Assembly (NCBI GenBank): GCA_023460715.1
Contig: JAEWPH010000267.1
Span: 1 to 43,477 of the forward strand
DNA length: 43,477 nucleotides
Origin: Pseudomonadota bacterium
GTDB lineage: Bacteria; Pseudomonadota; Gammaproteobacteria; Burkholderiales; Burkholderiaceae_C
Direction of reading: 5' to 3'
Shown: positions 996 through 2,015 of the stretch, piece after piece
How the letters are laid out: each line of letters begins with the position of its first letter
Numbering within the stretch: the stretch's first letter is position 1
Position numbers and translations under genes: made by a program
The notes under the pieces: model-generated
Database searches by the model: none
What the model saw: only the letters and a program-made list of their open reading frames with translations
Told to the model about the DNA's origin: nothing

Positions 996-2015
996 ATGCG
1001 CGTTTATTATGATCGTGATGCCGATCTCAATCTCATCAAGTCCAAGAATGTCGTCGTCGTCGGTTACGGCTCCCAGGGCCGCGCCCATGCGCTGAACCTC
1101 AAGGATTCCGGTGCCAAGAACGTCGTCATCGCTCTCAAGGCCGGTTCTCCGACCGTCAAGAAGGCCGAAGCCGATGGCTTCAAGGTCATGACCGTTGCCG
1201 AAGCCGCCAAGTGGGGCGACCTGCTGATGATGGCAACGCCTGACGAACTGCAGGCCGACATCTACAAGGCCGACATTGCCGGCAACATCCGTGATGGCGC
1301 AGCGATTGCTTTCGCGCACGGCCTCAATGTTCACTTCGGCCTCATCGAGCCGAAGGCATCGCTCGACGTCGTCATGATCGCACCGAAGGGCCCTGGCCAT
1401 ACGGTTCGCGGCGAATACCAGAAGGGCGGCGGCGTTCCCTGCCTCGTTGCCGTTCACCAGAACGCTTCGGGCAACGCCCTTGAACTCGCTCTCTCCTACG
1501 CCTGCGGCGTTGGCGGCGGCCGTTCGGGCATCATCGAGACCAATTTCAAGGAAGAGTGCGAAACCGACCTCTTCGGCGAACAGGTCGTTCTCTGCGGCGG
1601 TCTCGTCGAACTGATCCGCGCTGGTTTCGAAACTCTGGTCGAAGCCGGTTACGCTCCGGAAATGGCCTATTTCGAGTGCCTGCACGAAGTGAAGCTGATC
1701 GTTGACCTGATCTATGAAGGCGGCATCGCCAACATGAACTACTCGATCTCCAACAATGCCGAGTACGGCGAGTACGTGACCGGTCCGCGCGTCGTGACCG
1801 AAGAAACCAAGAACGCCATGCGTCAATGCCTGAAAGACATTCAGACCGGCGAATACGCGAAGAGCTTCATCCTGGAAAACAAGGCCGGCGCACCGACCCT
1901 GATTTCCCGTCGTCGCCTGAACGCGGAACACGAGATCGAGCAAGTGGGCGCCAAGCTGCGCGCGATGATGCCGTGGATCGCGAAGAACAAGCTGGTGGAT
2001 CAGTCCAAGAACTGA
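996..2015 (+). CDS. ilvC: Ketol-acid reductoisomerase (hybrid of two lineages)
   Basis: This is the second enzyme of branched-chain amino acid synthesis. It isomerises and reduces acetolactate or acetohydroxybutyrate with NADPH and Mg2+. It has 339 residues, the usual class I length. The nucleotide-binding loop GYGSQG is at 23-28, the metal-ligand motif ETDLFGEQ lies mid-protein, and E227 and E231 sit in ECLHE. ATG 996 has a strong ribosome site, GGGAAGGA at 981-988. The protein is mosaic. Residues 1-232 match the Rhizobiaceae form. From about residue 254 ([12 protein letters not shown]) to the end ([25 protein letters not shown]) it matches the betaproteobacterial form, and codon use changes at the same place. 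The frame is intact, so the product could fold, but I read it as an assembly artefact. Confidence 0.95.
1692..1755. other. Lineage junction inside ilvC
   Basis: V232 (codon 1689-1691, ECLHEV) is the last residue I recognise as alpha-type; betaproteobacteria usually have L there. N254 (codon 1755-1757) and Y257 are the first beta-type residues; Rhizobiaceae usually have T or S and W. The roughly 60 bases between encode [18 protein letters not shown], which is almost invariant across Proteobacteria, so the exchange point cannot be placed more finely. The residue assignments rest on memory of family sequences. Confidence 0.65.

Follow-up and report, generated by a model that had tools for sequence, protein, structure and literature searches.

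The ilvC gene lies in the first part of the window, by which we mean the whole stretch of 43,477 nucleotides that was analysed, and it appears to change lineage within a single open reading frame: its beginning reads as alphaproteobacterial and its end as betaproteobacterial. This raises the question of whether a hybrid enzyme between two classes of bacteria exists in some cell, or whether the DNA of different organisms was put together during assembly of the sequence. We found that the window is composed of three segments of differing origin, that the switches between them are abrupt, and that an exact shared block lies at each switch (Table 1). The window is almost certainly a chimeric contig in which three bacteria were joined by assembly software, and its two hybrid genes, that of ilvC among them, very probably arose as artefacts of the assembly.

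Table 1. Segments, joins and genes of the window (positions in the window; G1195 and G001, reference genomes closest to the left and right parts; L058 and L067, reference loci)
Feature	Position	Strand	Remarks
Segment A, Rhizobiaceae-type (Agrobacterium-like)	1..1755	+	tetR/acrR gene and first part of ilvC
tetR/acrR gene	236-946		in Segment A
Apparent hybrid ilvC (ketol-acid reductoisomerase)	996..2015	+	alpha residues 1-232, beta residues 254-339
Join 1	1704..1755	+	window, G1195 and Noviherbaspirillum malthae L067 agree in all 52 bases
Segment B, Oxalobacteraceae-like	1756..6995	+	starts inside the first shared block, ends inside the second
3' part of ilvC	from 1756	+	Oxalobacteraceae-like, in Segment B
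SIMPL-domain gene	2163-2933		Segment B
psd	3146-3784		Segment B
pssA	3819-4688		Segment B
rpsO	4961-5230		Segment B
Apparent hybrid pnp	5457..7754	+	Oxalobacteraceae-like to 6995, G001-like from 6996
Join 2	6996..7036	+	window, G001 and Herminiimonas L058 agree in all 41 bases
Segment C, Acidovorax-like, collinear with G001	6996..43477	+	assigned by DNA identity to G001

The lineage switch inside ilvC

The reading frame of ilvC is unbroken and codes for a protein of 339 amino acids, in which PF07991 and PF01450 are both found in one open frame (protein P0001, precomputed Pfam assignments). The protein is like other ketol-acid reductoisomerases in having both domains and in its length, which is the usual one among the database matches, and it differs from them in that its halves come from different classes. 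The two parts were compared separately with a panel of IlvC proteins from genomes. Residues 1-232 matched the best alphaproteobacterial protein at 100% and the best betaproteobacterial one at 65%, and residues 254-339 matched the best betaproteobacterial protein at 95% and the best alphaproteobacterial one at 59%. Discordant halves were seen in none of the 136 panel rows (84 alpha and 52 beta, some genomes being entered twice). With an open frame, an N part closest to alpha and a C part closest to beta, the in-frame switch described in the earlier note is confirmed, and the best two-parent breakpoint interval, residues 232-253, coincides with the changeover block that it had named.

The same switch is seen when the protein is set against its nearest relatives in the database. 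Four proteins (P0010, P0013, P0015 and P0019) show 98.8-100% identity to that of the window in every one of the three blocks taken from residues 1-232, and their identity is 48.9-57.4% over residues 254-300 and 56.4-66.7% over residues 301-339. Three of the four are alpha in both halves, and the C half of P0013 is undecided. Codon preference, which had been said to change at the same point, does reverse, with log-odds of alpha over beta of +35.0 for codons 1-232 and -14.9 for codons 254-339, but the coincidence in position is only rough, the breakpoint obtained from codons alone being codon 204, about 28 codons early.

At the DNA level the switch is sharp. Against G1195, the genome closest to the left flank, ilvC has no mismatch from 1422 to 1755, but 53 of the 140 bases from 1760 to 1899 differ (about 62% identity), while the ilvC of G1195 itself is complete and stays alpha past the switch position. 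Since the match is exact up to 1755 and collapses after it, the switch must lie at or before 1755, in a block that is at least 52 bases long as judged from N. malthae L067. The longest exact block common to the ilvC of G1195 and that of Burkholderiales overlaps 1692-1770 in 36 of 44 sequences, so that Join 1 sits where the two kinds of gene usually have their longest identical stretch; the longest of all these blocks covers 61 bases, at 1690-1750.

Three lineages and a second switch in pnp

The left flank follows G1195 closely, with 12 mismatched bases in the 1706 of window positions 50-1755, and a separate count that includes gap columns gave 14 differences before 1690. The TetR protein coded upstream of ilvC aligns over 92% of its length, at 98% identity, with a protein named for Agrobacterium sp. 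O3.4. G1195 probably belongs to Agrobacterium, in the family Rhizobiaceae.

The middle segment is Oxalobacteraceae-like. Several named Oxalobacteraceae genomes match the 3' part of ilvC at 87-88% identity, and the gene order of the segment is that of the Herminiimonas locus L058, minus one extra gene that L058 carries between pssA and rpsO. Furthermore, ilvC and pnp occupy one neighbourhood in Oxalobacteraceae, whereas they are about 380 kb apart in G001, the genome closest to the right part of the window, where their positions are about 4.07 Mb for ilvC and 4.456 Mb for pnp; the neighbourhood of the two genes in the window is consequently not that of G001. A near-identical parent of the middle segment was not found among 347 scored genomes of one family, the best-scoring match being 81% over 4852-6990 (392 genomes were drawn, 45 were not scored, and 345 of those scored gave a match). 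We assume that the genome from which this segment comes has full-length ilvC and pnp genes.

The space between pssA and rpsO was also compared. All four Oxalobacteraceae loci inspected (L050, L051, L058 and L067) have there a putative leuA-like frame, and the window at 4689-4960 is without it. A further join or a difference between lineages may account for the missing gene, and either would explain it.

The SIMPL-domain protein shares its 90% identity cluster (P0241) with a copy on a second contig of 54,036 bases, which need not be identical at this clustering level and which is perhaps on an unmixed contig of the Oxalobacteraceae-like organism. If the 54,036-base contig carried the same hybrid ilvC, the cluster of the window's IlvC should count two contigs instead of the one it has, unless ilvC were cut by the contig end.

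From the second switch onwards the window follows G001. Identity per 250 bases is 95.2-100% from 7000 to 21.5 kb, and it is 97-98% over 23478-43477; the nearest named relative of this segment is Acidovorax sp. Leaf160, with 86.3% over 8995 aligned bases.

The switch into this segment, which is absent from the earlier note, is again in the middle of a gene, in frame and in an exact shared block, near 6996-7036 inside pnp. As far as 6995 the gene has 71.4% identity to G001, against 79.5-81.6% to the 14 closest named loci; from 7051 to 7500 it is 99.1% identical to G001, and the same 14 loci are down to 69.8-74.0%. Of 45 Oxalobacteraceae-like loci compared with G001 across the whole of pnp, 21 have their longest shared block overlapping 6984-7036, where a majority had been expected, and the block at 6984-7036 is thus a common, but not the sole, candidate for joining. 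The second switch lies 5.2 kb past the first, both keep the reading frame, and three lineages follow one another within 7 kb.

Some smaller features of the right segment concern the Acidovorax-like genome itself. Repeats of about 100-150 bases at about 29938-30091 and 36489-36650 have many further matches in G001 (8 and 20 of 51 rows) and are a dispersed short repeat family of this genome. At 36665-36764 the window has about 100 bases that are missing at the collinear place of G001, which has a 97% copy at 2359436-2359535.

Origin of the joins

Two in-frame switches inside exact shared blocks, together with three lineages, point to misassembly through k-mers rather than to recombination in a cell. 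A k-mer graph (short-read) assembler would have used the nearly invariant block of ilvC to pass from the Rhizobiaceae-type genome to the Oxalobacteraceae-like one, and its path would then have left the latter for the Acidovorax-like genome through the conserved block of pnp. The frames would stay open, and the genes would look hybrid, because the orthologous genes are collinear and are identical at the joining blocks. We infer that the assembler was of this kind, that it worked on a metagenome, and that the joins arose during computation rather than in a cell.

Chimeric contigs arising from k-mers common to several genomes are described in passages of PMC7299287 and PMC7641418. The window is like such metagenome-assembly chimeras in switching within an exact shared block, each segment tracking its own genome. 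It differs from them in that both of its joins additionally keep the reading frame open and, as far as those passages go, in the distance between the parents, since the chimeras described there involve related species or strains, whereas the parents of the window belong to different classes and families.

An assembly join at shared sequence had been put forward by the earlier note as the leading explanation of the ilvC switch, and the evidence supports it. The left and right parts each have a near-identical genome of their own, G1195 and G001, whereas the best-scoring relative of the middle segment stands at about 81%. At both switches the parents have an exact block in common, with relatives standing in for the parent of the middle segment, and further backing comes from the position of the first switch at the longest identical stretch of ilvC, from the second switch in pnp, and from searches for the junction. 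A pattern made of 24 bases of the first type, 100 free bases and 24 bases of the second type had no match in genome contigs, a set that may leave out the genome of the window itself or one very near to it, and none in viral contigs. Likewise, none of 346 Rhizobiaceae-type genomes (16 of them without a match at the threshold used) had an IlvC scoring above the 670.1 bits of the natural enzyme of G1195.

A different account would make the window part of a real mosaic chromosome, in which homologous recombination in pnp brought an Oxalobacteraceae fragment into an Acidovorax-like host, the fragment having earlier recombined in ilvC with Agrobacterium-like DNA. Homologous recombination would indeed place both switches in identical blocks and keep the frame, and the window shares with natural mosaic genes an in-frame switch at a conserved block. 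Similar IlvC hybrids on other contigs, a few of them long, could also be read as real recombinants. However, the DNA on either side of an exchanged piece normally belongs to a single host in a natural mosaic gene, whereas in the window the left flank, the middle and the right part are three lineages, and the two outer ones, G1195-like and G001-like, come from different hosts and have a near-identical genome each. The mosaic would require that distant taxa exchanged DNA twice within 5.3 kb, and the junction is without a match in the contigs and Rhizobiaceae-type genomes searched above. The same hybrid did not appear in an isolate or an independent assembly either, the window's IlvC being alone in its 90% identity cluster (P0001; 1 contig, 43,477 bases). 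Recombination in a cell was rejected as the main reading on the three lineages within 7 kb and the differing hosts on either side, and we consider such a mosaic chromosome very unlikely. It is, in the same way, highly improbable that the near-invariant block of ilvC is a natural crossover point between classes and that the window holds one real recombinant among many.

A chimera made in the laboratory, by ligation or by template switching during the amplification of mixed DNA, and afterwards correctly read and assembled, has only a slight chance of being the answer: template switching also favours identical blocks, but the 43-kb contig would need two events of this kind, and among the reads their products would have to be more abundant than the true molecules. 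Finally, the idea that a single natural alpha- or betaproteobacterial gene evolved at unequal speeds in its two halves, the switch being only apparent, has a negligible probability, since, although alpha proteins generally resemble the window query less in their C part than in their N part, uneven divergence is excluded by the DNA comparison with G1195 (100% identity over 1422-1755, and about 62% immediately beyond) and by the concordant halves throughout the panel.

With assembly as the preferred reading of both joins, the hybrid ilvC very probably does not exist as biology and is useful as a caution. Where ilvC and pnp are conserved, contigs can become joined across families and classes with no break of the frame, so that gene callers notice nothing, and the hybrid proteins that result from such joins enter sequence databases looking like new enzymes. 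Before any work on its taxonomy or binning, or any claim of gene transfer based on it, the window should be divided near 1.75 kb and near 7.0 kb.

IlvC hybrids in other contigs

Proteins with an alpha N part and a beta C part made up 37 of the 120 best listed matches to the window's IlvC when that protein is included, and 36 of 119 without it; four proteins classed as "mix" were left out of the count. These 120 proteins are the best of 8000 scored, and because a hybrid query ranks hybrids high, 37 of 120 is not a rate. The breakpoint intervals overlap residues 232-254 in 24 of the 37 hybrids and do not overlap them in 13. Fourteen of the 37 (that of the window and 13 others) are at least 90% identical to an alpha protein and at least 85% to a beta protein, with 14 different best parent pairs, and the best parents of the similar hybrids elsewhere differ from those of the window. 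N parts only 77-83% like alpha are present in 14 of the 37, which may be natural proteins of lineages outside the panel, or chimeras with other classes.

To judge from these proteins, ilvC may be a recurrent site of chimera formation in assemblies; among the papers listed by literature searches, including those on ilvC with recombination or mosaic, no title treated this gene as a place where chimeras form. Should any of the other hybrids be real, it would be a surprise to see a core biosynthetic gene exchanged between classes. Contig size is given for 32 hybrids among the best 120 of 8000, and 26 of them are on contigs of 10,454 bases or less. The six on longer contigs are that of the window, P0002 (352,158 bases), P0030 (206,501), P0012 (159,623), P0064 (82,702) and P0079 (52,837).
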